DNA of 64,000 bases from the NCBI GenBank assembly GCA_937902925.1, contig CALFNN010000105.1, forward strand, positions 186,001 to 250,000. The letters are read 5' to 3'. The position numbers and the translations under genes were made by a program. The notes below the pieces were generated by a model, which ran no database searches, was not told the DNA's origin, and was given only the letters and a program-made list of their open reading frames with translations. This stretch comes from an uncultured Opitutaceae bacterium (GTDB taxonomy: Bacteria > Verrucomicrobiota > Verrucomicrobiia > Opitutales > Opitutaceae). Below, piece after piece: positions 15,879 through 35,099 of this stretch (within the stretch, counting starts at the first letter, position 1; each line of letters opens with the position of its first letter).

Positions 15879-16131
15879 GAGAAGCGGGGGGGGCGGAGGC
15901 TTCGCGGCGGGCGACCAACCGCGAGCTGTCGAGTGCGGACCGACGCGGCGGCCTGTCAAGCCATCGGCGTGATCGTCATCAATATTGACGACATGAACTC
16001 CGGGGCGCGGGTCGATAGACTCTCTCCCCCCAGCACGCAGTCGCGACCCGACCGGCGTTGCTGGCACCGGCGATCGTTCCCGGCGAACGCGCTTGATCGC
16101 AACCCCGCTCCCCTTGCACCCCAAAACTCGC
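15879..16131. other. Divergent intergenic region, kinase / modular pectinesterase
   Basis: 253 bp between two outward-reading genes, so it must hold both promoters. A run of eight G follows the GTG start of the kinase. No clear operator, riboswitch or hairpin was recognised. Confidence 0.5.
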
Positions 16132-19100
16132 ATGAAGACCCGCCTCCGCTCCACCCCGCGTCGTTTCCTGCCGGCCGCGTTTCTCCGGTCGGCCATACTC
16201 GCGCTCCTCCTGCCGCTCGGCGCCCACGCCCAGCTCACGTGGAGCGTGTTCAACGAAACCTCGACGACGGCCGCACCCGCCTCCGACGCCAACAGTGGCG
16301 TGAAAGTCACGGTGCCCGCCGGACAGCGGGTGACGCTGGTCGCGACGAACTTCGTGCCGGTGGATTTTTCCGGCGGCAGCACGGCGCAGGTTTATGCGAC
16401 GATCAACTTCAAGGTGTCGGGCGCGCTGTCGAGCGTCGGCAGCGGCACGCGCGCGATCGGATTCGGCCTCTACAACAACGGCGGCACCGCCACGAACTTT
16501 GGCGACGACAACGGCTACTTCACGTGGCTGAACGGCCGCAACACCGGCAGCCTGATCGAGCTGCGCCGCCGGAACGGCGACGGCACCTCCGCGAGTCTGC
16601 TCAATCCGTCGGGCACTGCGTTCAATTCGCTCGGCACGGGCACGACGACCCAGACGGTGGGCGCGTTGTCGGACAGCAACAGCTATTCGATCCAGCTTCA
16701 CCTGATGGGCCGCAACCCCGGCGTCTCGCTGGGCAACACCAGCTCGACGACGAGCGGGGCCGGCATCTGGGTCAGTGGCGACGGGATCAGTCAGACCGCC
16801 TACACCAATCCCGATAATCCGCCGTCGACGTATGTCTTCAACGAGATCGGTTTCATGTTCTATAACTCCTCGAGCGCGGACGTGACGCTCACGATCAATT
16901 CGCTCACCGGGCTCACCGCCATCAACCCGCCCGCGGTCGCGACACCGCCGGCCGCGATCACCGTGAACCCCGGCCAGTCCGCGACCTTCAGCGTCGGCGC
17001 CACCGGCACGGCGCCGCTGACCTATCAGTGGACGAAGGGCGGCACGGCCATCACGGGTGCCACGAGCGCGAGCTACACGATTGCGAGCGCCGCCACCGGC
17101 GATGCGGGCAACTATGCGGTGACGATCACCAACACCTACGGCACCGCCACGAGTGCGGCCGCCGCGCTGACCGTGACATCGGCCACGATTCCAGCCACGC
17201 TCACGAGCCAGCCGGCCAGCCTCACAGTTAATGCCGGCCAGAGCGCGACATTCTCGGCCACGTCCTTCGGCAGTGCACCGGTCAGCTACCAATGGAAAAA
17301 GGACGGCACGGCGATTGCCGGAGCCACGAGCGCGACCCTTGCGATCGCCAGCGTCGCGGTGGCCGATGCCGGCAGCTACACCGTGGCAGTCAGCAACAGT
17401 GCGGCATCGGTCACGAGCACTGCCGCCGTCCTCACGGTCAACACCGCACCGACGATCACGACGCAGCCGGTGAGCGCGACGGTCCTCGCCGGGCAGAGCG
17501 CGACTTTCAGCGTCGTGGCGACCGGCAGTCCCGCGCCGACCTATCAGTGGAAGAAAAACGGCACCGCGATCTCCGGCGCCACCGCGGCGAGTTATACGGT
17601 GACGGGGGCCCAGCTGGCCGACACGGGAGTTTACACGGTCACGCTCGTCAACTCGGTCGGCGCGGTGACCAGCAACGCCGCGGTGCTGGCGATTCCGTCG
17701 ACCATGGGCGCGACGGCGGTGGCGCCGGCGATCGGCGCCACCGGGATCAACACGGACACGTTGCTCAGCGTGACCTTCGACCGCGTGCCAGTCATCGGCA
17801 CGACCGGGCGCATCCGGATTTACAAGGCGTCGGACAATACGCTGGTCGACACGCTCGACCTCGGGGTCACGCCGTATACGCGGAAGATCGGGACGCAGAC
17901 GGTCGATTTCATTTTCTATCCGATCATCGTGACGGGCAACACGGCGACGATCTTCCCGCACGCCGGCGTGCTCGCCTACAATACGAAGTATTACGTCACC
18001 ATGGAGCCGAGCGTCATTCGGGACAGCACCGGCGCGTCTTACGGAGGCTTCTCGTCACCCACCGGGTGGACGTTTACGACGAAGACGGCCGGACCGGCCG
18101 CGGGGGCGTCGGCTATCACGGTCGCCGCGGATGGCTCGGCCGATTTCAACACGGTGCAGGGCGCGATCGACTTCGTGCCGAGCGGCAACACCAGCCCGGT
18201 CGTCATCACCGTGAAGAAGGGCACCTACACCGAGATGACCTATATCGGCTCGCAGAAACCCTTCATCACCGTCCAGGGCGAGGATCGCGCGCAAACGATC
18301 ATCCAATACGCGAACAACGGAAACTTCAACACGCTCACCGGCAACAATCGTGCGATGTTCAACGTCGATGCGAGCGACTTCACGCTGCAGAACATCACGC
18401 TCCACAACCTGACGCCGCAGGGCGGCTCGCAGGCCGAGGCGTTCCGGGGCAACGGCCTCCGGCTCTACCTCAACCAAGTCAACCTCCTCAGCCGGCAGGA
18501 TACATTCCTCGTCAACGGCAACGCCTGCTCCGCGTTCGTCGTCGACAGCTACATCGAGGGCAACACCGACTTCATGTGGGGCAGCGGGGCGGTCTACATG
18601 CTGCGCACGGAGCTGAAGGCGCTCGACACCGGCACCGCCACCGAGGGCTATTACACGCAGATGCGCAACGGCCAGACCGGCGTCGGCGCCGTCTACGTCG
18701 ACTGCCGCCTCACCGTGGCGGACGGCGTCGCGGGCAAGAGCACTTATTACCTCGGCCGCATCGATCCGACGCCCGGCAACTTCCCCTACAGCCAGTGCAT
18801 CTGGGTGAATTGCGCGATGGGGCCGCACATCAACCCCGCCGGCTGGCTCCTTAATAACGCCACCAGTTCGACCACGGTGCAGTATTGGGAATACAAGAGC
18901 ACCGACCTCACCGGCGCGGCGCTCGATGTCAGCAAGCGCATCGCCTCTTCCCGGCAGTTGACCGACGCCGAGGGCGCGTCCTGGCGCATCCCGGCGAATG
19001 TCCTCGGTGGCTGGAGCCCGTCGGTTCCACCGGCCGTCACCGCGACGACTCCGCCGACGAGTGCGACGACTGGCGGCAGCGTCAACCTGACGGCGACGAC

Positions 19101-20049
19101 GGTGGGCTCAACCTCGCCGGCGCTGCAATGGACGCGCAACGGCACCGCCATCGCGGGCGCGACCGGTTCCACACTGACGGTCGCCAATGTTCAGTCGGCC
19201 CAGGCCGGAGTCTACAGTGCCGTCGTCAATCCGACGCGCATTGCGCCGCTGACCGTGCTCGGCATCACGAGCACGGCGAAGGTCGTGGGCAGTGCGACCG
19301 AGACCGGCCCGAACATCTTCGTCCCGGCGAACGGCTTCACCTACGACCAGGTTTTGCTGCAAGGCGCCGCGGCGACCGTCACCGCCGACGCCGGCCAGAT
19401 CGTCCGTGTTTCCTACGTCGATCTGACCAACGACATCGTGCAGGTGGAATTCAGCGGAGCCGGATCGCTCACGCTGAACCTCGACAATGCGACCGGACCC
19501 GCGACGGCGACGAACTACACCCAGCCCTCGGTTTCCTACATGAAGGGCCATGGCTCGATCGTCATCACCGGGGCAAACGAAACGACGAACCTCGCGGTGT
19601 ATAGCCTCGGCATCCTAACCGCCGGGGATCCGACCATCCTGCGCAGCGGTGTGACCTACGATGGCATGGCGGACCTGGCCTACGTCGCGATCGCCTCGGC
19701 GAACGGCAAGTTCGGCGGTCTGCGGACGGCGAATGCGAGTTATTACGGCACGAAGGGCATCACCGGCGTCTTCGCGCCCAACGTGCAGTTCACCGGGCCG
19801 GTCTATGTGGGCGACATCAACGCGTTCGACGCCGCCACACCGGTGCTGGTGATCGGCAGCGCGAGCGATGTGCGCGTCACCGGCGGCGATCTGCTACAGG
19901 CGAACGGAAGCCATATCCTCGTCGACGGATTGAGCAGCGTGCAACTGACCGCCGGGACGACATCGCAGGGCACCGCGCAACCCGTGCAGCCGGTGCGCGG
20001 CCTGCTCGAGCGCAACGGCGTCGATGTGACGAGCCAATTGGTGCACTGA
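16132..20049 (+). CDS. Large modular secreted pectinesterase with Ig-like domains
   Basis: 1305 residues from ATG 16132, with a signal peptide ending GAHAQ (about residue 35). Order of parts: an unassigned beta-rich region (about 36-265); three Ig-like repeats each with xYQWxKxGTAI; and a Big_5/SbsA-like domain (ATAVAPAIGATGINTD onward). Next is a CE8 pectinesterase domain opening TVAADGSADFNTVQGAID, with active-site motifs GGSQAEA, RQDTFLVNG and NTDFMWGSG. It ends with one further Ig-like repeat and a C-terminal region of about 260 residues. That last region is also present at the end of the 28155 protein. Ig repeats probably act as spacers or in surface attachment. The gene diverges from the propeller kinase and ends at a strong terminator. 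Confidence 0.9.
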   Translation: MKTRLRSTPRRFLPAAFLRSAILALLLPLGAHAQLTWSVFNETSTTAAPASDANSGVKVTVPAGQRVTLVATNFVPVDFSGGSTAQVYATINFKVSGALSSVGSGTRAIGFGLYNNGGTATNFGDDNGYFTWLNGRNTGSLIELRRRNGDGTSASLLNPSGTAFNSLGTGTTTQTVGALSDSNSYSIQLHLMGRNPGVSLGNTSSTTSGAGIWVSGDGISQTAYTNPDNPPSTYVFNEIGFMFYNSSSADVTLTINSLTGLTAINPPAVATPPAAITVNPGQSATFSVGATGTAPLTYQWTKGGTAITGATSASYTIASAATGDAGNYAVTITNTYGTATSAAAALTVTSATIPATLTSQPASLTVNAGQSATFSATSFGSAPVSYQWKKDGTAIAGATSATLAIASVAVADAGSYTVAVSNSAASVTSTAAVLTVNTAPTITTQPVSATVLAGQSATFSVVATGSPAPTYQWKKNGTAISGATAASYTVTGAQLADTGVYTVTLVNSVGAVTSNAAVLAIPSTMGATAVAPAIGATGINTDTLLSVTFDRVPVIGTTGRIRIYKASDNTLVDTLDLGVTPYTRKIGTQTVDFIFYPIIVTGNTATIFPHAGVLAYNTKYYVTMEPSVIRDSTGASYGGFSSPTGWTFTTKTAGPAAGASAITVAADGSADFNTVQGAIDFVPSGNTSPVVITVKKGTYTEMTYIGSQKPFITVQGEDRAQTIIQYANNGNFNTLTGNNRAMFNVDASDFTLQNITLHNLTPQGGSQAEAFRGNGLRLYLNQVNLLSRQDTFLVNGNACSAFVVDSYIEGNTDFMWGSGAVYMLRTELKALDTGTATEGYYTQMRNGQTGVGAVYVDCRLTVADGVAGKSTYYLGRIDPTPGNFPYSQCIWVNCAMGPHINPAGWLLNNATSSTTVQYWEYKSTDLTGAALDVSKRIASSRQLTDAEGASWRIPANVLGGWSPSVPPAVTATTPPTSATTGGSVNLTATTVGSTSPALQWTRNGTAIAGATGSTLTVANVQSAQAGVYSAVVNPTRIAPLTVLGITSTAKVVGSATETGPNIFVPANGFTYDQVLLQGAAATVTADAGQIVRVSYVDLTNDIVQVEFSGAGSLTLNLDNATGPATATNYTQPSVSYMKGHGSIVITGANETTNLAVYSLGILTAGDPTILRSGVTYDGMADLAYVAIASANGKFGGLRTANASYYGTKGITGVFAPNVQFTGPVYVGDINAFDAATPVLVIGSASDVRVTGGDLLQANGSHILVDGLSSVQLTAGTTSQGTAQPVQPVRGLLERNGVDVTSQLVH

Positions 20050-25409: not shown

Positions 25410-25637
25410 TCACTCCTGGTCGTTGCTGGTCAGACCGGCGAACCGGGCGCATTGCTCCCAGGTGGTGGAGTTGTCGGTCGAATCGGTGGTGAAAAGTTCG
25501 GGCATCACTTTCGCGGCGGCGATGGCGGGCGGGAAACCGAGGATGACGAGCCATTGATAGGTGTTCATGGGGGAGTTGTCCGGCGCGCCGGCCGTTTCGG
25601 GGGAAGCAGCGGGAGAGGAATCGGAGCGGGAGAACAT
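25410..25637 (-). CDS. Small protein of unknown function under the shared four-box promoter
   Basis: A possible 75-residue protein from ATG 25637 (an inner ATG at 25568 would give 52 residues). It has a short hydrophobic stretch QWLVILGFPPAIAAA and a polar C-terminus ending NDQE; no family is recognised. Support comes mainly from context. The four-box motif at 25660-25708 faces this gene. Its last box is 27 bases from the start codon, almost the distance seen before the MbnP-MbnH gene (26 bases). The upstream EF-hand gene has its own terminator in between, so this would be a separate transcription unit. It may also encode a small RNA instead. Confidence 0.4.
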   Translation of the reverse strand: MFSRSDSSPAASPETAGAPDNSPMNTYQWLVILGFPPAIAAAKVMPELFTTDSTDNSTTWEQCARFAGLTSNDQE

Positions 25638-25659
25638 GCGCCGATTTAAGCGCGGGCGT

Positions 25660-25708
25660 GTTAAAGAATGATGAGGGCGGAACCGGAAAAGTGTTAAGGC
25701 CGGGTAAA
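25660..25708 (-). promoter_or_regulatory. Four-box regulatory array, site A
   Basis: On the minus strand: TTTAC (25708-25704), TTAAC 11 bp on (25697-25693), CTCAT (25675-25671) and TTAAC 11 bp after that (25664-25660). The second and fourth boxes are 33 bp apart. It is the same arrangement as sites B, C and D in this region, pointing toward the small ORF. Confidence 0.75.
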
Positions 25709-25746
25709 TGCCGGCCGGAAAAAGTGGAGGGCGCCGGGGGCGTGAA

Positions 25747-25773
25747 CAAAAAACCCCGCCAGTGCCGGCGGGG
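25747..25773 (-). terminator. Rho-independent terminator after EF-hand gene
   Basis: On the minus strand a 7-bp stem CCCCGCC / GGCGGGG with a 6-base loop (GGCACT) is followed by six T. It lies 25 bp after the stop codon of the EF-hand gene and separates it from the small ORF downstream. Confidence 0.85.
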
Positions 25774-25797
25774 TTGCAGCTGGGCTTGCGTGGCGGA

Positions 25798-26355
25798 TCA
25801 GTCGCGCGGCGGGCGGTTGCCACGGGGCGCGGGGCCGCCGTCAGGCGGGCCACCCGCGCCGTCGAACGCACCGGCGGGCGGGAGCGGGCGCCACTCATCG
25901 GGCGTCAGCTTGCCATCGCCGTTGGCATCGAGCGCGCGGAGGCTGGCGGGAGCGTTCGCGATTTCGGCAGCGGAGAGCGCGCCGTCCTGGTCCGCATCAA
26001 GGGCGAGCATGATCGGCGGCAATGGGTGCGGAGGCCGGACCGCATCGGGCGGCGGCGCACTTTCGGGCGGAGTTGGCGCATCGGCGGGACGAGGCGGCCG
26101 GAGTTCGTCGACGGTGAGTTGACCGTCGCCGTTGGCGTCGAGCGTCAGCAGGCTCGTTGACGCTGCGGCGATTTCGGCGGCGGAGATTTCGCCGTCATGG
26201 TCGGTGTCGAGCACGCGAATCACCGGCATGGGTGGATGACCGCGACCGCCACGGGGCGGCTGGCGGGGGCCGTCGCCCGATGGGGGTTGGGCGGCGAGCG
26301 CGGTGGCGAGGCCGAGCGGGAGCGCGGTCAGGAGGAGGCGATGGATTGTCTTCAT
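25798..26355 (-). CDS. Secreted EF-hand (calcium-binding type) protein
   Basis: 185 residues from ATG 26355 (MKTIHRLLLTALPLGLATALAAQ is a clear signal peptide). Four EF-hand loops in two pairs: DTDHDGEISAAEI, DANGDGQLTVDEL, DADQDGALSAAEI and DANGDGKLTPDEW. The pairs are joined by Pro-rich linkers, and the C-terminus is Gly/Pro-rich. All four loops keep Asp at positions 1, 3 and 5 (or the N/Q variant) and Glu at 12, so they should bind divalent cations. It sits downstream of the HAMP kinase with its own four-box site (26445-26492), so it is probably regulated together with the YHYH and MbnP-MbnH genes. Confidence 0.9.
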   Translation of the reverse strand: MKTIHRLLLTALPLGLATALAAQPPSGDGPRQPPRGGRGHPPMPVIRVLDTDHDGEISAAEIAAASTSLLTLDANGDGQLTVDELRPPRPADAPTPPESAPPPDAVRPPHPLPPIMLALDADQDGALSAAEIANAPASLRALDANGDGKLTPDEWRPLPPAGAFDGAGGPPDGGPAPRGNRPPRD

Positions 26356-26444
26356 GAGGAGATTGTCGCCCGGCCGGACTGCCGTCACCCGGAGGGGCGG
26401 CGAAAGAACAGGAGGCGGGGGACAGGAGAAGAGACGCCGCGATT

Positions 26445-26492
26445 GTTTCGGAACGGTTAGCGCGGACGGGAGAATTGTTTCGCCCGGGTAAA
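26445..26492 (-). promoter_or_regulatory. Four-box regulatory array, site D
   Basis: On the minus strand: TTTAC (26492-26488), GAAAC 11 bp on (26481-26477), CTAAC (26460-26456), GAAAC 11 bp after that (26449-26445). Boxes two and four are 32 bp apart as in site B. It shares ACAATTCTCCCG with site C directly after the second box. It lies about 90 bp before the EF-hand start codon. It is the most diverged of the four sites. Confidence 0.65.
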
Positions 26493-26505
26493 GTTTGCCG
26501 CGCGT

Positions 26506-28017
26506 TCAGCCCGCCGCGAGTTGCAGGGCGGCGCGGAAGCCGTGCGGGGTGCGGTTCTCGAAGCGGACTTCGCCGCCACAGGCGGCGATGCCGCTGCGCA
26601 CGATGGCGAGGCCGAGCCCGACGCCGCCCGTCTCCCGCGTGCGCGCGGTTTCCGGGCGGTAAAACGGTTCCCCGAGTCGCGCGAGGGCCTCGGCCGGCAC
26701 GCCCGGCCCATCGTCCTCCACCGTGATTACGATGTTTTCACCGTCGCGACGGGCGCTGAGCTGGATCGGGGCGGCGTCACCCGCGTAGCGGAGGGCATTG
26801 CGAACCAGATTGCCGAGCGAGCGGGAGAGAAGCGGGGCGTCGGCGCGCGCGGCGAGGCCCGCGGGCACGTTGACCGAGACGCGCGCGGTGGCCGCTTCGC
26901 GGGCGAGCATGGCGCCGACCAACGAGGCGAGCTCGACGGTGGCGAGCTCGGCGGTGCGCGGTCGCAGGCCGGCCTTGGTGAAGGCGAGCAATTCGCCGAC
27001 GAGCGCGCTCATCTGCTGGACCTCCTCGCGGACATCGGCGATCTGCGGCTGGAGTGCGGCATCGGCGCGGGACTCGAGAATCTCGGTGGCGACCTGCAGA
27101 CGGCCGATGGGCGAACCGAGCTCGTGGGCGATGTCGCCGAGAAAACGTTTCTGGCCGTTGACGAGCGTGTCGAGCCGGCCGGCCATCGCGTTGACGGATT
27201 CGCCGAGGCGGCCGAGTTCGTCGCGGCGCGAGGCGGGCACGCGGGTGTCGAAGCGGCCCTCGGCGATCTGTCCGGTGGCGAGCGTGAGCTGGCCAAGCGC
27301 GCGGGTGATGCCATGGACCAGCGGCAGCCAGAAAAGAACGGAGACGACGAGCACCGCAGCTGCCGCGAGCAGCCACGGCTGGATGTCGAGCAGGCGGAGG
27401 AGGGCCCAGCGCGAGGTCACGTGTGCGAGCAACGTCGCGGGCAGCGGGGGCTCGCCGGCAGCGGCGTGAAACGGCACCCGCAGGCCGATCCAGTAACCGG
27501 CTTCGTTCACGATAAAGCGGCCGCGCCCGCGCGCCTCGGCCAGTTGGGGCGGTTCGGAGCGCGGCGGCCCGTCGGCGGGTGGAGGCGGCTGGGCCGCGGG
27601 CGGCCCGTCGGCGGGCGGAGGCCGTTGGACCGCGGGCGGGCCGCCAAAATCCCGCGGGCGCGGCGGTCCGCCGCGAAGCGCGGGCAGCACGAGTTGCGCA
27701 CGGACGGCGGCGGGCAGCGCGAGTTGCGGGCCAGCGATTTGTTCGCCGCGATTGTAGAAGAGCAGGAATTCCGCGCCATACGCGCCGCCGAACCGGGCGA
27801 GGATCGCACCCCGCGCGTCGGGCGCGGCGGCGTTGATCTCGCCGATGACGATGTCGCCAACGCCCTGCACGCGGTCGCCGGCGGGCCCGCCCATCAGCGC
27901 GTTCCAGCCGAGGCCGCCGTGCGCGAGCAGAAAGCCCACGCCGACGCCGCCGAGCAACAGGAGGTTGGCGAGCAGCCAGAGCGAGATTTTGAGCGAGAGG
28001 GGAAAGGAGACTTTCAT
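26506..28017 (-). CDS. Sensor histidine kinase (HAMP, HisKA, HATPase_c)
   Basis: 503 residues. There is one N-terminal membrane helix (about 10-32) and a periplasmic domain with a Pro-rich segment in which PPPADGPP occurs twice. The second membrane helix is near residue 220, then HAMP (RALGQLTLATGQIAEG), then the phospho-accepting His in GDIAHELGSPIGRLQ. The ATP site has NLVRNALRYAG, DDGPGVP and GGVGLGLAIV. This is the class that pairs with OmpR-type regulators. No such regulator adjoins it; the only candidate is at 32394-33140, beyond the 4.2-kb YHYH gene. The signal is unknown; a metal is a reasonable guess from the neighbours. Confidence 0.92.
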   Translation of the reverse strand: MKVSFPLSLKISLWLLANLLLLGGVGVGFLLAHGGLGWNALMGGPAGDRVQGVGDIVIGEINAAAPDARGAILARFGGAYGAEFLLFYNRGEQIAGPQLALPAAVRAQLVLPALRGGPPRPRDFGGPPAVQRPPPADGPPAAQPPPPADGPPRSEPPQLAEARGRGRFIVNEAGYWIGLRVPFHAAAGEPPLPATLLAHVTSRWALLRLLDIQPWLLAAAAVLVVSVLFWLPLVHGITRALGQLTLATGQIAEGRFDTRVPASRRDELGRLGESVNAMAGRLDTLVNGQKRFLGDIAHELGSPIGRLQVATEILESRADAALQPQIADVREEVQQMSALVGELLAFTKAGLRPRTAELATVELASLVGAMLAREAATARVSVNVPAGLAARADAPLLSRSLGNLVRNALRYAGDAAPIQLSARRDGENIVITVEDDGPGVPAEALARLGEPFYRPETARTRETGGVGLGLAIVRSGIAACGGEVRFENRTPHGFRAALQLAAG

Positions 28018-28074
28018 GCGCGGGGCGCGAGACGGAGGCAGCTATACGCGAGTTCACGGGAAAAATCTGCAACG

Positions 28075-28122
28075 TTTACGCCGGCTTAACAAAATCGCGG
28101 TCGCGGCTCACACGCGCTTAAC
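28075..28122 (+). promoter_or_regulatory. Four-box regulatory array, site B
   Basis: Plus strand: TTTAC (28075-28079), TTAAC 11 bp on (28086-28090), CTCAC (28107-28111), TTAAC 11 bp after that (28118-28122). It shares CGGCTCACAC and GCTTAACCGC with site C. It lies 33 bp before the YHYH start codon and 57 bases from the kinase start on the other side, so it may also serve the kinase gene. Confidence 0.8.
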
Positions 28123-28154
28123 CGCGGCGGGTTTCAATCGGCGGACCCACTCCC

Positions 28155-31100
28155 ATGAAATTCATCCTCCGCCTCCTGCTGGTCGCGGGGTCGGTGCCGG
28201 TTGCGCGGCTGGCGGCGCAATCGGTGACCGATCCGCACATCACGACCTGGCTCACCGCGAACTCCGCGCAATACGCGCGCATCTGGGAAACGTCGTCCGA
28301 CAAATCCTCCGGCAACGCCGTGAGCACATGGCCGCGCTCGGGCCTGACGAACAGCGGCGGCGGCCAGGCGACCTCGGCCTACGCCGACATCCAGCGCGTC
28401 GCCTACTCGTCGACCTACGTCTATGTCTACACGACCGGCCTCGCGAGCTACACGATGGGCAACTGGCTCAACCCGCAGGGCGGCGTGTTCATGTTCTGGC
28501 CGACCAATCGCGCCGCGATCCACCGGATCCCGCGCACGCCAAGTATTCCGACGACGAAGTCGAAAGCCACCGGTGTTGGCGGCGTGTGGCTGAACGGCGT
28601 CTACCTCTGGGAAAACGGCGACGCACAGTCCTACACAACCAGTTCCGGCGCCGTGTCGATGGGCGGCCAGGGCATCTGGAACCGCCTCGCGGGCGTCGCG
28701 GAGGCGTTCAACTTCGACACGGCGAACGGGCACCAGCCGAGCAGCGGCGCCTACCACACGCACATCAACCCGATCGGACTTCGTTACCAGCTCGGCGACA
28801 ACGTCACCTACAACTCGTCGGCGAAGACCTACGCCGAGGCGTCGCCGACACAGCACTCGCCGATCCTCGGCTGGGCGCTCGACGGGCTGCCGATCTACGG
28901 GCCCTACGGCTACTCGTCGGCGATGGACACGACGAGCGGCGTGCGGCGGATGACGTCTGGTTTCCAAAAGCGCGACGGCACCAACGGCTCGACCAATCTC
29001 ACCTCGACGGGGAGGCACACGCTGCCCGTCTGGTCCGCCAGCGTGCAGGGCAAGAGCCAGACGCTCGCGTCGACGGAATACGGTCCGAGCGTCAATGCGA
29101 CCTATCCGCTCGGCACGTTTGCGGAGGACTACGACTACAAGGGCGACCTCGGGCTCACGCAGGGCATCGACTTCGACCTCAACCGGCAGAACGTCCGGTA
29201 TTGCGTCACGCCGGAATATCCCGGCGGCACGTATGCGTATTTCGTCTGCATCGATGCGTCGGGGACGACCACGTTTCCCGACGTGATCAACCAGGAGTTC
29301 TACGGCGCGCTGCCGTCGGGCGGCGGCCCGAGCGCAAACCAGGGCACGGTCACGAGCATCACCGAAGCGGTGACCGAGTATGCCGACGCGGGCCCGGCGA
29401 CGGCGATCGCGGTGACAGCAGCCGCGTCGGGTGCGAACGTCGCGCTGAGCTGGAATTCCGCGGAAGGCGCGACTTACAAGGTCGAGTCGTCGCCGGACAA
29501 CACGACTTGGACCACGTTGTCGTCGGCGGTGACCAGCAGTGGACTCACGACCAACTATACCGCGACCACGAACACGAACTACTACCGTGTCACGCTCACG
29601 GCCATCGCGAGCTACGACACGGGCGGCACCTACGGCGCGCCGGTGGGCAAGACCGGGACCGTGCTTTTCGGCACCGCGGCCACCGCTCCGTCCATCACAA
29701 CGCAGCCGGCGGGTGCGACCGTGACGGCGGGGACCAGCGTGACGTTTTCCGTCGTCGCGACGGGCACGGGCCCGCTCAGCTACCAATGGAAAAAAGGCGG
29801 CGGCGCGATTTCCGGTGCGACGAACACCAGCTACACGATTGCCAGCCCGCAGACTGGCGACGCGGGCAGTTATGCGGTCACGGTGACAAATTCCACCGGC
29901 TCCACCACGAGCAACGCGGTAACACTCGTCGTGAACCCGGTCGTGACGGCGCCGGCGATCACGACGCAGCCGGCCAGCGCCACGGTGACCACCGGCGGCA
30001 GCGCGACCTTCACGGTCGTCGCGTCCGGCTCGGCGCCGCTGAGCTACCAGTGGTCGAAGAACGGCAATGCGATTTCCGGCGCGACTGCGGCGAGCTACTC
30101 CATCGCGGGCGCGCAAGCGGGCGATGCCGGCAGTTACACTTGCGTGGTGAGCAACAGCGCGGGCTCGGCCACCAGCAACGCGGCGGTGTTGACGATCACC
30201 AGCGCGGCGATCGCACCGGCGATTACGACGCAACCGGCGGCGCTGACGGTGGCCGCCGGCGGCAGCGCGACATTCATGGTGGGCGCGAGCGGTTCGAGCC
30301 CGTTCACCTATCAATGGCGGAAGGGCGGCGTGGACGTCGGGGGTGCGACCTCAGCGAGCTACACGATTGCGAATGTGCAGGCGGGCGACGCGGGGAGTTA
30401 CAGTTGCGTGGTGACGAACAGCGCGGGTTCCGCGACGAGCAACGCGGCGACGCTGACCGTGGGCACGCCCGCGGTGGCGCCGACGATCACGATTCAACCC
30501 GGGAACGCGAACGTGACCACGGGCGCCAGCGCGACGTTCACGGTGGTGGCGAGCGGAACCGCGCCGTTGACCTACCAGTGGCAGAAAAGTGGCGGCGCCA
30601 TCGTCGGCGCGACGGGCGCGAGCTACACGATTGCGAGCGCGCAGGCCGCGGACGCCGGTGGCTATGCGTGCGTCGTGACCGACAATGCGGGTTCGGTCAC
30701 GAGCGGCACAGCGACCCTGACGGTGACGACTGCCGCCGTGGCGCCGGGCATCGCCACGCAGCCCACGGGAGCGACGATCGCGGCGGGCGGCAACGTGCTG
30801 CTCAGCGTCGTGGCGAACGGCACGGCGCCGCTCAGTTACCAATGGTATAAGGACGGGCTGCCGATCGCGGGTGTGACGACCGCGAACTACGCGATCACCG
30901 GTGCGCAGGCGATGAGCGCCGGCAGTTACACATGCGTGGTGACGAACAGCCTCGGCTCCGTGACCAGTAGCGCGGCGGTGCTGGTCGTGAGCGCGCCGGC
31001 GACGGCGCCGGCGATCACGACGCAGCCGGTCAGCCTGACAGTGGCGGCGGGTGCCAGCGCGACGTTTACGATTGTTGCGACAGGCACCGCGCCGCTCACT

Positions 31101-32312
31101 TACCAGTGGCGCAAGGCGGGCGTGGCAATTACCGGCGCGACCGCCGCGAGCTATACGATCGGCAGCACGCTGGCGGCCGATGCGGGAAATTATTCGTGCA
31201 CGGTTTCGAACAGCGCGAACTCCGTCAGCAGCAACGTCGCAACGCTCACTGTCACAACAACGGCGGCGCCGGCCATCACCTCCCAACCGGCCAGCACCAC
31301 GGCCTCGGCGGGAAGCAGCGTGAACCTGAACGTTACCGCGACCAGCGGCGGCATAGCGTCCTACCGCTGGCAGCGCAATGGCACCGACATCACGGGCGCC
31401 ATCGGAACGGCGCTCACGCTCGTCAACCTCCAGCCCGGAGACACGGGACTATACGACGCCGTGGTCAGCAGCGGCGCCGCGACGACGAGTGCCGCGGCGA
31501 TCGTGGGCGTGACGACGGGTGCGAAGGTCATCGGGGCGGGCGAGGAGGTGCAGCACGACGTTTTCGTGGCGGCCAACGGCAACACCTTCGACCAGGTGCT
31601 GGTCGAGGGGGCGGCCGAGGCGATCACGTCGGACTACGCGTTGCAGCAGATCACGCGGACGTCGTTCGTCGATCTCAACGACGACATCGTGCAGGTGGAG
31701 TTCAGCGGACCGGGCACGCTCTCGCTCGTGCTCGACAACGCGACCGGCCCCGCGCTGCCGGTGAACTACAATCAATCGGTCGCCTACATGAAGGGCCACG
31801 CGGGGATCGTGATCACCGGGGCGACGGCGGCCACCAATGTGTCGGTCTTCAGCGTGGGCCGGATCACGGCGGTCAACCAGGCGCTGTTCAAGGACAACGT
31901 CGTTTACGACGGCATCGCGGACCTCGCGTTCATCGCGATCTCGAGCGCGGACGGGAAGTTCGGCGGTGTGCGCGCGGCGGACGCGAGCTTCTTTGCGACC
32001 AAGGGGCTGACGGGGATCTACGCTCCGGGCGTGCAGTTCACCGGCCCGGTTTATGTCGGCGACATCAGTGCGTTCGATGCGGCGACCGGCGTGCTCGTCC
32101 TCGGCGGCGCGACTGGCAACACGTGGGTGACCGGGGGCGATTTCGCGCAGGCCAACGGCCGCGCCGTGCAGGTGAGCGGGCTCACGCAGTTGAAATTCAC
32201 CAACGGAAGCGATTCGCACGGCAACCCGATCCCGGCGAAAACCAACCAGGCGGCGCTCCAGCAAAACGGCGTCGATGTGACGGCGCAGATCGTGGTGAAT
32301 CCGACGCCGTAG
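28155..32312 (+). CDS. YHYH-domain protein with seven Ig-like repeats, secreted
   Basis: 1385 residues with a signal peptide (about 1-21). Residues 25-420 are a YHYH-type domain: the motif YHTH is at 200-203 (SGAYHTHINP), followed by the family segment ILGWALDGLPIYGPYGY. A fibronectin-like region follows, then seven Ig-like repeats (29684-31512), each with YQW or YRW and DAGxY. The last 260 residues match the end of the 16132 pectinesterase. The YHYH family is of unproven function; its conserved histidines suggest metal binding. It faces away from the HAMP kinase and is preceded by site B, so it looks like a target of the kinase/regulator pair on either side. Confidence 0.87.
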   Translation: MKFILRLLLVAGSVPVARLAAQSVTDPHITTWLTANSAQYARIWETSSDKSSGNAVSTWPRSGLTNSGGGQATSAYADIQRVAYSSTYVYVYTTGLASYTMGNWLNPQGGVFMFWPTNRAAIHRIPRTPSIPTTKSKATGVGGVWLNGVYLWENGDAQSYTTSSGAVSMGGQGIWNRLAGVAEAFNFDTANGHQPSSGAYHTHINPIGLRYQLGDNVTYNSSAKTYAEASPTQHSPILGWALDGLPIYGPYGYSSAMDTTSGVRRMTSGFQKRDGTNGSTNLTSTGRHTLPVWSASVQGKSQTLASTEYGPSVNATYPLGTFAEDYDYKGDLGLTQGIDFDLNRQNVRYCVTPEYPGGTYAYFVCIDASGTTTFPDVINQEFYGALPSGGGPSANQGTVTSITEAVTEYADAGPATAIAVTAAASGANVALSWNSAEGATYKVESSPDNTTWTTLSSAVTSSGLTTNYTATTNTNYYRVTLTAIASYDTGGTYGAPVGKTGTVLFGTAATAPSITTQPAGATVTAGTSVTFSVVATGTGPLSYQWKKGGGAISGATNTSYTIASPQTGDAGSYAVTVTNSTGSTTSNAVTLVVNPVVTAPAITTQPASATVTTGGSATFTVVASGSAPLSYQWSKNGNAISGATAASYSIAGAQAGDAGSYTCVVSNSAGSATSNAAVLTITSAAIAPAITTQPAALTVAAGGSATFMVGASGSSPFTYQWRKGGVDVGGATSASYTIANVQAGDAGSYSCVVTNSAGSATSNAATLTVGTPAVAPTITIQPGNANVTTGASATFTVVASGTAPLTYQWQKSGGAIVGATGASYTIASAQAADAGGYACVVTDNAGSVTSGTATLTVTTAAVAPGIATQPTGATIAAGGNVLLSVVANGTAPLSYQWYKDGLPIAGVTTANYAITGAQAMSAGSYTCVVTNSLGSVTSSAAVLVVSAPATAPAITTQPVSLTVAAGASATFTIVATGTAPLTYQWRKAGVAITGATAASYTIGSTLAADAGNYSCTVSNSANSVSSNVATLTVTTTAAPAITSQPASTTASAGSSVNLNVTATSGGIASYRWQRNGTDITGAIGTALTLVNLQPGDTGLYDAVVSSGAATTSAAAIVGVTTGAKVIGAGEEVQHDVFVAANGNTFDQVLVEGAAEAITSDYALQQITRTSFVDLNDDIVQVEFSGPGTLSLVLDNATGPALPVNYNQSVAYMKGHAGIVITGATAATNVSVFSVGRITAVNQALFKDNVVYDGIADLAFIAISSADGKFGGVRAADASFFATKGLTGIYAPGVQFTGPVYVGDISAFDAATGVLVLGGATGNTWVTGGDFAQANGRAVQVSGLTQLKFTNGSDSHGNPIPAKTNQAALQQNGVDVTAQIVVNPTP
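29684..31512 (+). repeat. Seven tandem Ig-like coding repeats
   Basis: About 260 bp per unit, each encoding API-T-QP, then SATFxVVAxG, then PLxYQWxKxG, then DAGxYxCxVxNSxGS. The units are similar in DNA as well as protein, implying recent duplication. They are an internal part of the YHYH protein, not a separate element. Confidence 0.85.
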
Positions 32313-32336
32313 CCCAGGCGTCGCGAAAAGTTGTGG

Positions 32337-32397
32337 GGCGGGGTCGCCGAACCCCGCCAAGTTGCGGGCAAGGCGGGGTTCGGCGACCCCGCCCTAC
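32337..32397. repeat. REP-like perfect inverted repeat between convergent genes
   Basis: Two 22-bp arms, 32337-32358 and 32372-32393, are exact reverse complements around a 13-base spacer. The right arm runs into CTAC, whose complement GTAG contains the TAG stop codon of the OmpR-type regulator. There is no T-run, so a mobile palindromic repeat is more likely than a simple terminator, though it may act as one. It resembles the elements at 43612 and 53340. Confidence 0.8.
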
Positions 32398-33140
32398 ATC
32401 GGGCCGGGCGCGACGAGCATGTAGCCGGCGGAGCGCAGCGTGCGGATGAAGCTCGGGTTCTTCGCGTCGTCGTTGAGCTTCTTGCGCAGCGACGAAATGT
32501 GCACGTCGATCGAGCGGTCGAAGACGTCGTAGTTGCGGTCGCGAATCTCGTCGAGCAGCGCCTCGCGCGTTTTCACGCGGCCCCGGGCCTTTGCGAGGCA
32601 GGCGAGCAGGTCGAACTCGACCGGCGTCAGCACAAGCGGCGTGTCGCCGAGCGCAGCCGAGCGCGCGTCGAGATTGACGCGCAACGGACCGACCACGATC
32701 TCCGCGGGTGGCGCGTCGGCGCCGGGTGCGGCGGCGGTTGCGGCGCTGCGGCGCAGGACGGCGCGGAGGCGGGCGAGCAGCTCGCGCGTCGAGAAAGTCT
32801 TGGGGAGGTAATCGTCGGCGCCGACCTCGAGGCCGACGATGCGGTCGGTTTCGTCGCCGCGCGCCGTGAGCATCAGGATGGGCACGGTGCTTTTTTGGCG
32901 AATCCGGCGGAGCACCTCGAAGCCGTCGATTCCGGGCAGCATCACGTCGAGGATGACGACGTGCGGGGCGTCGGCGCCCGTGGCAGTCGCGCGCTCGACG
33001 CCGTCCGGTCCGTGGTGGACGACCGATACCTGGAAGCCGAGCGGTTCGAGGTAGGTCGAGACGAGCCGGCAGAGCTTCTTGTCGTCGTCGATCATCAGCA
33101 GTCGCGTGCGACCGGGGGCGGAGGTGTCGTCGGGACTCAT
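32394..33140 (-). CDS. OmpR/PhoB-family response regulator
   Basis: 248 residues from ATG 33140 (MSPDDTSAPGRTRLLMIDDD); an upstream ATG at 33176 is possible but adds poor sequence. The receiver domain has acidic residues IDDDK, phospho-acceptor Asp65 in VVILDVMLPG and Lys in DDYLPKTFS. The C-terminal winged helix has LTPVEFDLLACLA and DVHISSLRKKLN. It is most likely the partner of the kinase at 26506-28017 despite the intervening gene. It starts 56 bp from box 1 of site C. OmpR-type proteins bind direct repeats spaced 11 bp, which is the spacing found in sites A-D. The stop codon TAG lies in the adjacent palindromic repeat. Confidence 0.93.
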   Translation of the reverse strand: MSPDDTSAPGRTRLLMIDDDKKLCRLVSTYLEPLGFQVSVVHHGPDGVERATATGADAPHVVILDVMLPGIDGFEVLRRIRQKSTVPILMLTARGDETDRIVGLEVGADDYLPKTFSTRELLARLRAVLRRSAATAAAPGADAPPAEIVVGPLRVNLDARSAALGDTPLVLTPVEFDLLACLAKARGRVKTREALLDEIRDRNYDVFDRSIDVHISSLRKKLNDDAKNPSFIRTLRSAGYMLVAPGPM

Positions 33141-33196
33141 CGGGCGGAGTGAGTTTGCTGGAAAACGCGGCGGCACGCAACCGCGGGCTCACCCGC

Positions 33197-33245
33197 TTAA
33201 CACGCCCTTAACAATTCTCCCGCGCCCGGCTCACACCGGCTTAAC
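33197..33245 (+). promoter_or_regulatory. Four-box regulatory array, site C
   Basis: Plus strand: TTAAC (33197-33201), TTAAC 11 bp on (33208-33212), CTCAC (33230-33234), TTAAC 11 bp after that (33241-33245). Boxes two and four are 33 bp apart. The last box is 26 bases before the start of the MbnP-MbnH gene, and the region also separates it from the divergent regulator gene. Confidence 0.8.
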
Positions 33246-33266
33246 CGCCACGGGCTACGATGGCGC

Positions 33267-35099
33267 ATGCGTGGCGTGCTCTGGTATCTCCTCCTCGCCC
33301 TGCCGCTCGGTGCGGCGGAGGTGGAGTTGCGCCTGACGCCGCGCTGGCACGGCGACGCGATCGCGGTGCCCTCGGGCGAACTCGCCAACGATCATGGTCA
33401 GTCGCTGCGGATCACGCGGCTGGCGGCGGTCGTGTCGGGTGTGACGTTGCGGCGCGCCGATGGCGGGACGGTGCGGCTGGACGGGCAGTATGGTTTCATC
33501 GATGCGGCCGACGGTCGGCTGGCGGTTGAATTGCACAACGTGCCGGCGGGCGACTACGCCGGCATCGAATACCGGATCGGGGTGCCGCCGGAGATCAATC
33601 ACGCCGATCCGTCGCGCTGGCCGGCGGGCCATCCGCTGAACCCGCTCGTGAACCGGCTCCACTGGGGCTGGCAGGGCGGCTTCATTTTTCTCGCGCTCGA
33701 GGGCAAATGGCGCGCGGCGGCCGGCGGGCCGGAGGACGGATTCTCCTATCACCTCGCGACGGATGCGCACCTCATGCCGGTGCGATTCCTCGCCGCGTTT
33801 TCCGTCCGCGGCGACACGCGAATCGACCTGGCGCTGGATCTCGCCCGCGTGCTGGCCCGCCGGGAGCTGGCGGCGGGCGGAGCGGTCGAGTCGACGCATT
33901 CCGGCGACGGCGACGCGCTGGCGGGCGAACTCGCGAGCGGGGTGGAGCGCGCGTTTTTCTGGCTGGAGGCGAAGCCGGCGACCCTGGCGTTGCCGCGGAC
34001 GGCGGAGGGCGCGGACGTGGCGCGGGGCGTCGCTGGCGGAAAAGCGACGCCATTTGCGTTCAGCGTGCCCGCGGGATTTCCGCAGCCGAGCCTGCCGGCG
34101 GACAATCCGCTGACGGTCGAGGGCGTGACACTTGGTCGGAGACTGTTTGGCGACCGGCGGCTCTCCGGCAACGGGCGGCAGAGTTGCGCGGACTGTCACT
34201 CGCCGGCGCGGGCATTCAGCGACCGCGTGGCGTTGAGCCGCGGGGCCGAAGGCAAGCTGGGTGCGCGCAATTCGATGCCGTTGATGAATCTCGCCTGGAA
34301 CCCGGCGTTCGCGTGGGACGGCAGCCAGCCGCGCGTGCGCGACCAGACGTTGGCGGCGATGACCAACCCGGTCGAGATGCACGCCGATCTCGCGCAGGTG
34401 ACGTCGCGGCTGGCGCGCGATCCGCGGGTGCGCAGCGATGTCGCGGCAGCGTTCGGCACGCCCGACATCACGGCGCAGCGGCTCTCGCTCGCGCTGGAGC
34501 AATACCTGCTCACCCAGGTCTCCGCCGACTCGAAGTTCGACCGGGCGACGCGCGGCGAGCTGGCGCTGACCGAGGAAGAGAAACGCGGCTTCGCGCTCTT
34601 TGTGACGGAATACGACCCGGCGCGCGGCCAGCGGGGCGCGGATTGCTTTCACTGCCACGGTGGGACGCTGTTCAGCGACTTTGCCTACAAGAACAACGGA
34701 CTCGACCTCGCGCCGGCGGACAACGGCCGGGGGCGCGTGACGAACCAGAGGAGCGACGAGGGGAAATTCAAGACGCCGTCGCTGCGCAATGTCGCGGTAA
34801 CCGCGCCCTACATGCACGACGGCCGGTTTGCGACGCTCGAGGAAGTCGTCGCCCACTACGACCATGGCGTCGCGCGCCACGACAATCTCGATCCCAATCT
34901 CGCGAAGCACCCGGCTGACGGCATGAAGCTGACGGCCGACGACCAGCGGGCGCTCGTGGCGTTCCTCCGGACGCTGACGGACGAGCGATTCCGGGTCGCC
35001 CCGCCGCCCCTGCGCCGGCCGCCGCCATTTCCGCCGCCGCCGCGCGACCGTGGCGGCGAGCAGGCCGGAACCCCCACGGCGGTTCACTCCTCGCCGTAG
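33267..35099 (+). CDS. MbnP-MbnH-like fusion: MbnP domain plus di-heme peroxidase
   Basis: 610 residues with a signal peptide (about 1-16). Residues 17-250 match the MbnP family: a HWGWQGGFIFLALEG segment (Trp133, Trp135) and a THSGDGDALAGEL end. Residues about 275-590 are a di-heme cytochrome c peroxidase/MbnH-type enzyme with two heme sites, CADCH (307-311) and CFHCH (460-464), and TPSLRNVAVTAPYMHDG. In known systems MbnH is a separate protein that oxidises a Trp of MbnP to kynurenine, creating a copper site. Here both are one polypeptide. The C-terminus is a Pro-rich tail. Its end overlaps the convergent cupin gene by 16 bp. It is preceded by site C, so regulation by the adjacent OmpR-type protein is likely. 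Confidence 0.87.
   Translation: MRGVLWYLLLALPLGAAEVELRLTPRWHGDAIAVPSGELANDHGQSLRITRLAAVVSGVTLRRADGGTVRLDGQYGFIDAADGRLAVELHNVPAGDYAGIEYRIGVPPEINHADPSRWPAGHPLNPLVNRLHWGWQGGFIFLALEGKWRAAAGGPEDGFSYHLATDAHLMPVRFLAAFSVRGDTRIDLALDLARVLARRELAAGGAVESTHSGDGDALAGELASGVERAFFWLEAKPATLALPRTAEGADVARGVAGGKATPFAFSVPAGFPQPSLPADNPLTVEGVTLGRRLFGDRRLSGNGRQSCADCHSPARAFSDRVALSRGAEGKLGARNSMPLMNLAWNPAFAWDGSQPRVRDQTLAAMTNPVEMHADLAQVTSRLARDPRVRSDVAAAFGTPDITAQRLSLALEQYLLTQVSADSKFDRATRGELALTEEEKRGFALFVTEYDPARGQRGADCFHCHGGTLFSDFAYKNNGLDLAPADNGRGRVTNQRSDEGKFKTPSLRNVAVTAPYMHDGRFATLEEVVAHYDHGVARHDNLDPNLAKHPADGMKLTADDQRALVAFLRTLTDERFRVAPPPLRRPPPFPPPPRDRGGEQAGTPTAVHSSP

Follow-up and report, generated by a model that had tools for sequence, protein, structure and literature searches.

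Four short arrays of pentamer boxes, found in a 64,000-nucleotide stretch of DNA from an uncultured Opitutaceae bacterium (assembly GCA_937902925.1, contig CALFNN010000105.1, positions 186,001 to 250,000; hereafter the window), are very probably activator-dependent promoters controlled by the response regulator that is encoded among them at 32394-33140, a reading built on sequence comparison. The arrays, here called A to D, face four target genes (Table 1) and share one layout: box 1, box 2 at 11 bp from it, box 3 at a further 21 bp (B, C) or 22 bp (A, D), and box 4 another 11 bp downstream. Direct reading of the sequence confirmed the sites of the original prediction with the coordinates, strands, and 11-bp and 21/22-bp spacings that it had given, and likewise the small open reading frame (ORF), EF-hand and YHYH genes that it had placed behind three of them; the "MbnP-MbnH genes" named for the fourth had to be amended, as they form a single fused ORF.

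A search of the window for this layout, with one mismatch to CTCAC allowed in box 3, returned exactly four occurrences, and none was found in 200 windows simulated from a first-order Markov model of the window. The left pair (boxes 1 and 2) alone occurs five times against 0.04 expected, the fifth copy (26663, minus strand) lying within the kinase gene and lacking a right half. Uniqueness in the bacterium's own genome (an assembly of 6.0 Mb, 95% complete) was assessed by pattern searches. At up to three mismatches, the gap-22 pattern matched only D and A, the gap-21 pattern only C, and a B-type pattern only B, while the left module with at most one mismatch matched only C, D and A; the reversed control gave no match in any of these searches. 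The original prediction was to be abandoned if the pattern occurred at random positions genome-wide, and these searches returned only the four arrays. It might still be argued that the boxes are AT-rich pentamers that arose by chance in GC-rich DNA and were picked after the fact, given that they form AT-rich islands in a window of 67% GC and that, across the family, a loose pattern (up to three mismatches, gap 22) is about as frequent as its reversed control. Set against the simulations, the conservation in orthologous promoters and the linkage to the regulator described below, this explanation is hardly credible, and we count it as refuted.

Absence from orthologous promoters was the other outcome on which the prediction was to fail, and the arrays are in fact present upstream of YHYH, MbnP-MbnH, EF-hand and small-ORF orthologues. 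The placement of the copies is what settles the matter: when proteins of the window were used as tblastn queries, arrays were found in several genera 5' of YHYH genes (divergent from the kinase gene) and MbnP-MbnH genes (divergent from the regulator gene), and also 5' of EF-hand and small-ORF genes. A search of 252 family genomes with at most one mismatch, a limit applied to gap 21 only, found 22 places in 19 genomes against one for the reversed control. Of the 57 usable promoters of YHYH genes, 38 carry an array copy with 0-4 mismatches, and the best copy on the opposite strand has seven. The YHYH set comprised matches of at least 200 bits, with the truncated one of G093 left out, and 69 of the 252 genomes had any YHYH match; its loci were collected partly through array matches and partly through protein searches. 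Excluded from the promoter counts were YHYH fragments (L084, L143, L146, L149, L166), a locus with a short upstream region (L160), and the MbnP gene of L158.

The original prediction had tied the arrays to the OmpR-type regulator of the same block, and co-occurrence supports that tie. Among 55 YHYH loci, all 33 with a regulator (at least 250 bits) or kinase (at least 300 bits) in the same stretch have an array beside the target, compared with five of the 22 without (Fisher test, 4e-10, a value that, like the next one, overstates certainty because related genomes are not independent). Four of these five arrays belong to genomes with a regulator elsewhere (G212, G079, G245, G078), the G079 copy containing an internal stop, and the fifth case (L142, in G095) has a regulator fragment. 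Counted by genome, array copies with at most two mismatches occur in 43 of the 70 genomes with a full regulator match (E at most 1e-70) and in 4 of the 182 without (Fisher test, 3e-25; counts tallied by hand from the search listings).

The same association appears when loci are chosen solely on regulator sequence. Of 402 relatives ranked in this manner the best 80 were taken, and 58 of the 80 loci carry arrays; the arrays number 77, of which 42 have gap 21 and 35 have gap 22, and none has a gap of 19, 20, 23 or 24, all of which were allowed in the matrix scan. Twenty column-permuted matrices run on the same loci gave no match. The matrix had been trained on loci L001-L101 plus the window, so that the 80 loci partly overlap the training genomes, and L171 carries the array sequences of L149. 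Array-bearing loci include records titled, as deposited, Spartobacteria, Chthoniobacteraceae, Pedosphaera and Verrucomicrobiales, and arrays adjoin the regulator even in loci with no detected YHYH or MbnP gene. In a separate count of about a hundred arrays, drawn from the loci of the linkage comparison, 62 have a spacing of 21, 46 of 22, and one of 20, the last lying 5' of MbnP in L138. A set of 35 "distant" loci was defined by regulator identity of at most 74%, after L199, L221, L225, L237, L244 and L247 had been left out by hand; these six are mostly Opitutaceae-family records, three with and three without arrays, and at least L236, which has the same array as L092, is a family member that still stands in the distant set. 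Four records with a Verrucomicrobiota-type regulator locus (L209, L230, L236, L249) are titled Akkermansia muciniphila or Klebsiella pneumoniae, and these metagenome-bin titles look wrong.

The cassette extends beyond the four boxes to a -10 element exactly 10 bp 3' of box 4. In 55 aligned copies (35 with gap 21, 20 with gap 22), which had been found by their boxes alone and with the -10 playing no part, T....T is conserved at this position in both spacing classes. Across 90 non-redundant arrays, TnnnnT begins at offset 10 from box 4 in 51, compared with 0, 3 and 3 at offsets 8, 9 and 11 and with maxima elsewhere of 19 (offset 7), 15 (offset 15) and 10 (offsets 5 and 28); in the more distant loci it stands at offset 10 in 23 of 27 arrays, and a T occupies offset 15 in all 27. 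No -35 element at normal spacing was seen in any of the 90 arrays, where TTGACA, tried at spacers of 16-18, is matched at best in one to three of six positions (mean 1.90, with 2.29 for shuffled sequence). The arrays therefore combine two features of PhoB-like promoters, namely a -10 at a fixed short distance and the lack of a sigma70 -35 hexamer. The aligned copies also conserve AAWW directly 3' of box 2, and their boxes 3 and 4 read C(A/T)CA(C/T)A...CTTAAC.

This geometry bears on a second explanation, in which the arrays are repressor operators or serve mainly to autoregulate the divergent kinase and regulator genes. Arrays C and D do lie in divergent gaps adjoining those two genes, but the fixed distance to a -10 on the strand of the target, the lack of a normally spaced -35 on that strand, and the existence of arrays with nothing but a target gene next to them (A, B and several in relatives) make this improbable.

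Several EF-hand-type promoters share a different set of letters, with (G/C)CGTC at the -10 place and an AATCG-like stretch after box 4. Such CGTC-type promoters were seen in the window (26492-26428, minus strand) and in L070, L071, L072, L074, L080, L097 and L140, while the other targets mostly have TnnnnT, and perhaps a second sigma preference is involved. A third explanation, which draws in part on this class, proposes that a different co-inherited regulator, such as an extracytoplasmic function (ECF) sigma factor or an OmpR-type paralogue, binds the arrays and that the adjacent regulator has other targets. ECF sigma genes do lie downstream of arrays in L072 and L095, and the GGCGTCT -10 of the EF-hand class resembles ECF promoters. 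However, the distances from boxes 3 and 4 to CGTC, counted by eye, misfit the usual ECF -35/-10 arrangement, and an ECF reading of the GGCGTCT class was rejected on that ground. Moreover, arrays adjoin the regulator where YHYH and MbnP are undetected and in records that bear the names of other classes in the phylum, and both the 11-bp direct-repeat rule and the CpxR-like pentamers suit the regulator's own family. Control by some other protein is thus judged quite improbable.

The regulator favoured here was named as OmpR-type in the original prediction, and the protein matches both Pfam domains expected of that type well above their gathering scores (Response_reg, 91.1 against 30.2 bits; Trans_reg_C, 87.3 against 26.2). 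None of the 25 NCBIfam models listed for it was above its cut-off: it scored 195.1 bits with the CpxR equivalog NF008199 (cut-off 341), 183.9 with the PhoB equivalog TIGR02154 (296.2), 209 with the OmpR model (331) and 172 with the RstA model (330). The solved structures nearest to its DNA-binding domain are those of RstA (66 bits), CpxR and OmpR (56 bits). Nine aligned orthologues, with 69-81% identity to the window regulator, share an invariant VFDRSIDVHIS, which falls in the recognition-helix region, and invariant D19, D20, D65, T92 and K114, which we take to be the phosphorylation-site residues of the receiver (an acidic pair, the phospho-acceptor D65, and T92 and K114). The kinase comes nearest to CpxA models, at 160.8 bits with NF007007 (cut-off 486) and 167.1 with NF045900 (cut-off 800).

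These components probably act as follows. The CpxA-like kinase would phosphorylate the regulator, one head-to-tail dimer of which would occupy boxes 3 and 4, replacing the -35 element and keeping sigma at the -10. Boxes 1 and 2 would be bound by another dimer on the same face of the helix, with the AAWW past box 2 left free for the alpha subunit of RNA polymerase, and the YHYH, MbnP-MbnH, EF-hand and small-ORF genes would be switched on together. Two dimer sites are assigned to each promoter by analogy with the direct repeats, 11 bp apart, that are the rule in the regulator's family.

A number of observations weigh against control of the arrays by the encoded regulator. Across the 252 family genomes, the pattern with up to three mismatches was matched in 50 (gap 22) and 52 (gap 21). 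The gap-22 pattern had 67 places and its reversed control 58, the gap-21 pattern 75 and its reversed control 47; because the control is nearly as frequent, this loose pattern is not used alone as evidence. Only 17 of 40 usable MbnP promoters have an array copy with 0-4 mismatches, and MbnP genes lack an array in L064, L080, L097, L098, L135, L136, L139, L140, L148 and L152, each with a regulator in the same stretch. Array-less YHYH loci occur in regulator-bearing genomes in three of 17 cases (G076, G105, G115), and therefore not every YHYH gene belongs to the system; in one of them, L139 of G076, a 216-bit regulator piece lies on the same short contig. Four genomes have arrays and no full regulator match (G095, G101, G123, G229), though a kinase or fragments lie near each array, and 22 of the 80 regulator-picked loci have no array above threshold. 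TnnnnT is absent at offset 10 in 39 of the 90 arrays, array B is a weak matrix match (28 bits) with an atypical -10, and the pairing of kinase with regulator is drawn from gene neighbourhood.

Table 1. Arrays, -10 positions and genes of the locus (window coordinates)
Feature	Coordinates	Strand	Description	Basis or score
Array A, gap 22	25660..25708	-	TTTAC/TTAAC/CTCAT/TTAAC; putative promoter of small ORF	Matrix score 49
-10-like TTAAAT, array A	25644..25649	-	10 bp after box 4; 6 nt 5' of ATG at 25637	
Small ORF	25410..25637	-	75 amino acids; conserved (Y/F)(Q/N)WLxxLGFPxxxAAA; predicted leaderless	Sequence comparison
Array B, gap 21	26445..26492	-	TTTAC/GAAAC/CTAAC/GAAAC; putative promoter of EF-hand gene	Matrix score 28
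TCTCTT in GGCGTCTCTT, -10 place of array B	26429..26434	-	10 bp after box 4	
EF-hand protein gene	25798..26355	-	Signal-like start; ATG 89 nt past box 4	Domain search
Sensor histidine kinase	26506..28017	-	HAMP, HisKA, HATPase_c	Nearest CpxA models, below cut-offs
Array C, gap 21	28075..28122	+	TTTAC/TTAAC/CTCAC/TTAAC; putative promoter of YHYH gene, divergent from kinase	Matrix score 61
-10-like TTCAAT, array C	28133..28138	+	10 bp after box 4	
YHYH-domain protein	28155..32312	+	1385 amino acids; immunoglobulin-like repeats	Domain search
OmpR/PhoB-family response regulator	32394..33140	-	Likely array-binding protein (predicted)	Pfam, NCBIfam, linkage
Array D, gap 22	33197..33245	+	TTAAC/TTAAC/CTCAC/TTAAC; putative promoter of MbnP-MbnH, divergent from regulator	Matrix score 59
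-10-like TACGAT, array D	33256..33261	+	10 bp after box 4; 5 nt 5' of ATG	
Fused MbnP + MbnH/MauG-type di-haem protein	33267..35099	+	610 amino acids; start 21 nt past box 4; predicted leaderless	

The position of the start codons relative to the arrays suggests how some of the target transcripts begin. Among 18 array-borne MbnP genes, 17 start 21-23 nt past box 4, the exception being that of L063; 12 of these starts were found by script (21-22 nt) and five were added by hand, namely L069 (ATG at 23 nt, with another at 14), L072 (GTG, 22), L138 (GTG, 23), and L074 and L075 (ATG, 21). The small ORF starts 22 nt past box 4 in four of five cases. Both kinds of start lie 5-7 nt past the -10, and transcription commonly starts 6-8 nt past such an element. 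Since the start codon sits where the transcript should begin, the MbnP-MbnH and small-ORF mRNAs are probably leaderless, beginning at or beside the start codon. The most upstream ATG of the YHYH genes lies mostly farther out: of 38 genes, 23 have it 32-42 nt past box 4 and six have it at 21-23 nt, and many YHYH transcripts should therefore have short leaders.

The MbnP-MbnH ORF reaches the Pfam gathering scores for both MbnP and CCP_MauG, and its NCBIfam scores fall below the cut-offs (TIGR04052, 37 against 140 bits; TIGR04039, 230 against 362.85 bits). MbnP-MbnH pairs occur far beyond methanobactin producers, according to passages of PMC3621798; the window version has the Pfam domains of both proteins but joins them in one ORF. 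The small ORF matched no family in Pfam or NCBIfam. Its WLxxLGFPxxxAAA stretch was recognized by letters in L067, L068, L069 and L077, and a tblastn search showed the small protein in L074. A large upstream protein (16093-20049) contains, at 19255-20043, a paralogue of the C-terminal part of the YHYH protein.

The arrays of relatives point to a wider regulon. Ten proteins were scanned in a survey of downstream genes, the ORF behind each array being chosen by length, and those identified include a separate YHYH protein (L084), MauG-type di-haem peroxidases (L090, L091), TonB C-terminal proteins (L063, L065) and a CotH/lamin-tail protein (L079); the L088 protein had no domain match, and a leader peptidase in L082, 277 nt from its array, may not be the target. 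Pfam also placed ECF sigma factors behind arrays in L072 (14356-15060) and L095 (9164-9814), and such an arrangement suggests a regulatory cascade in some relatives. ECF-like protein starts, judged by look, were seen behind arrays in L080, L096, L097, L185, L196 and L197, and a tiny ORF of 27 amino acids with the look of a single membrane helix stands behind the array of L100, with similar letters in L083. Of the 27 arrays in distant loci, 15 are followed by an EF-hand motif within 1 kb, and for this reason the oldest target may be the EF-hand gene next to the regulator.

Several of the targets are exported metal- or haem-type proteins, and the system therefore probably serves a response of the envelope, with metal (perhaps copper) or redox state as its trigger, which is the weakest step of the explanation. 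That YHYH and MauG-type genes stand behind separate arrays likewise points to one physiological programme, probably envelope metal or redox handling. A search of openly licensed papers found no relevant report of a copper role for YHYH. CorA is described in PMC3912023 as a copper-repressible, copper(I)-binding protein. Taken to the phylum level, we tentatively picture a Verrucomicrobiota-wide promoter class, a proposal slightly less likely than not to hold: a single two-component regulator, orthologous throughout and with its recognition helix unchanged, would act on a rigid cassette (two dimer sites, a 21/22-bp step, no -35, a -10 at 10 bp), some transcripts would begin at the start codon, and an ancestral EF-hand target would have been joined in Opitutaceae-like lineages by YHYH, MbnP-MbnH, TonB-like and ECF-sigma genes, recruited into a metal or redox response of the envelope.

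That regulators of the OmpR family use tandem 11-bp operators is textbook knowledge. PhoB promoters lack a -35, their pho box stands about 10 bp ahead of the -10, and tandem pho boxes are contiguous. The arrays resemble the pho-box promoters of E. coli in their 11-nt repeats, with the proximal pair at the place of the -35, but differ in the letters of the boxes (TTWAC/TTAAC/CWCAC, where PhoB has CTGTCAT), in the fixed 21-22 bp step that keeps the two pairs apart, and in their targets, since those seen are not phosphate genes. The statement in the original prediction that OmpR/PhoB-type regulators bind direct repeats spaced by 11 bp agrees with passages of PMC4415409, PMC3978041 and PMC3348028, where tandem 11-nt repeats are bound head to tail. 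Similar in letters is the CpxR site, given in parts of the literature as GTAAA-N(4-8)-GTAAA, with N6 at mexA (PMC5063474) and an N5 form elsewhere (PMC3127752); the site footprinted in P. aeruginosa, GTAAACCTAATGTAAA, is an 11-bp repeat (passages of PMC5063474). Read on the other strand, the mexA site is TTTAC-N6-TTTAC, which is near array boxes 1 and 2, and the window kinase matches CpxA models best. Unlike CpxR/CpxA, however, the arrays have four boxes and a fixed -10, and both proteins score far below the equivalog cut-offs; RstA and OmpR, despite offering the nearest solved DNA-binding domains, have models whose cut-offs the regulator likewise does not reach.

A literature search of openly licensed papers, limited to the best-ranked matches, found no operator motif for any Verrucomicrobiota regulator. 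As far as could be found in that literature, the operator, the 21/22-bp step between two dimer sites, the regulon and its spread over the phylum are new. Here an operator can be read from sequence along with the regulator, the targets and the spacing to the -10, and this gives a testable idea of what controls MbnP-MbnH and YHYH proteins; the predicted leaderless starts are a second testable point. About a hundred natural promoters with nearly only two spacings also provide material on how two regulator dimers cooperate.

Finally, an inverted repeat lies at 32332-32398, between the converging YHYH and regulator genes. Its 27-nt arms are 96% complementary and are separated by 13 nt, and it could be either a two-way terminator or a mobile palindrome.

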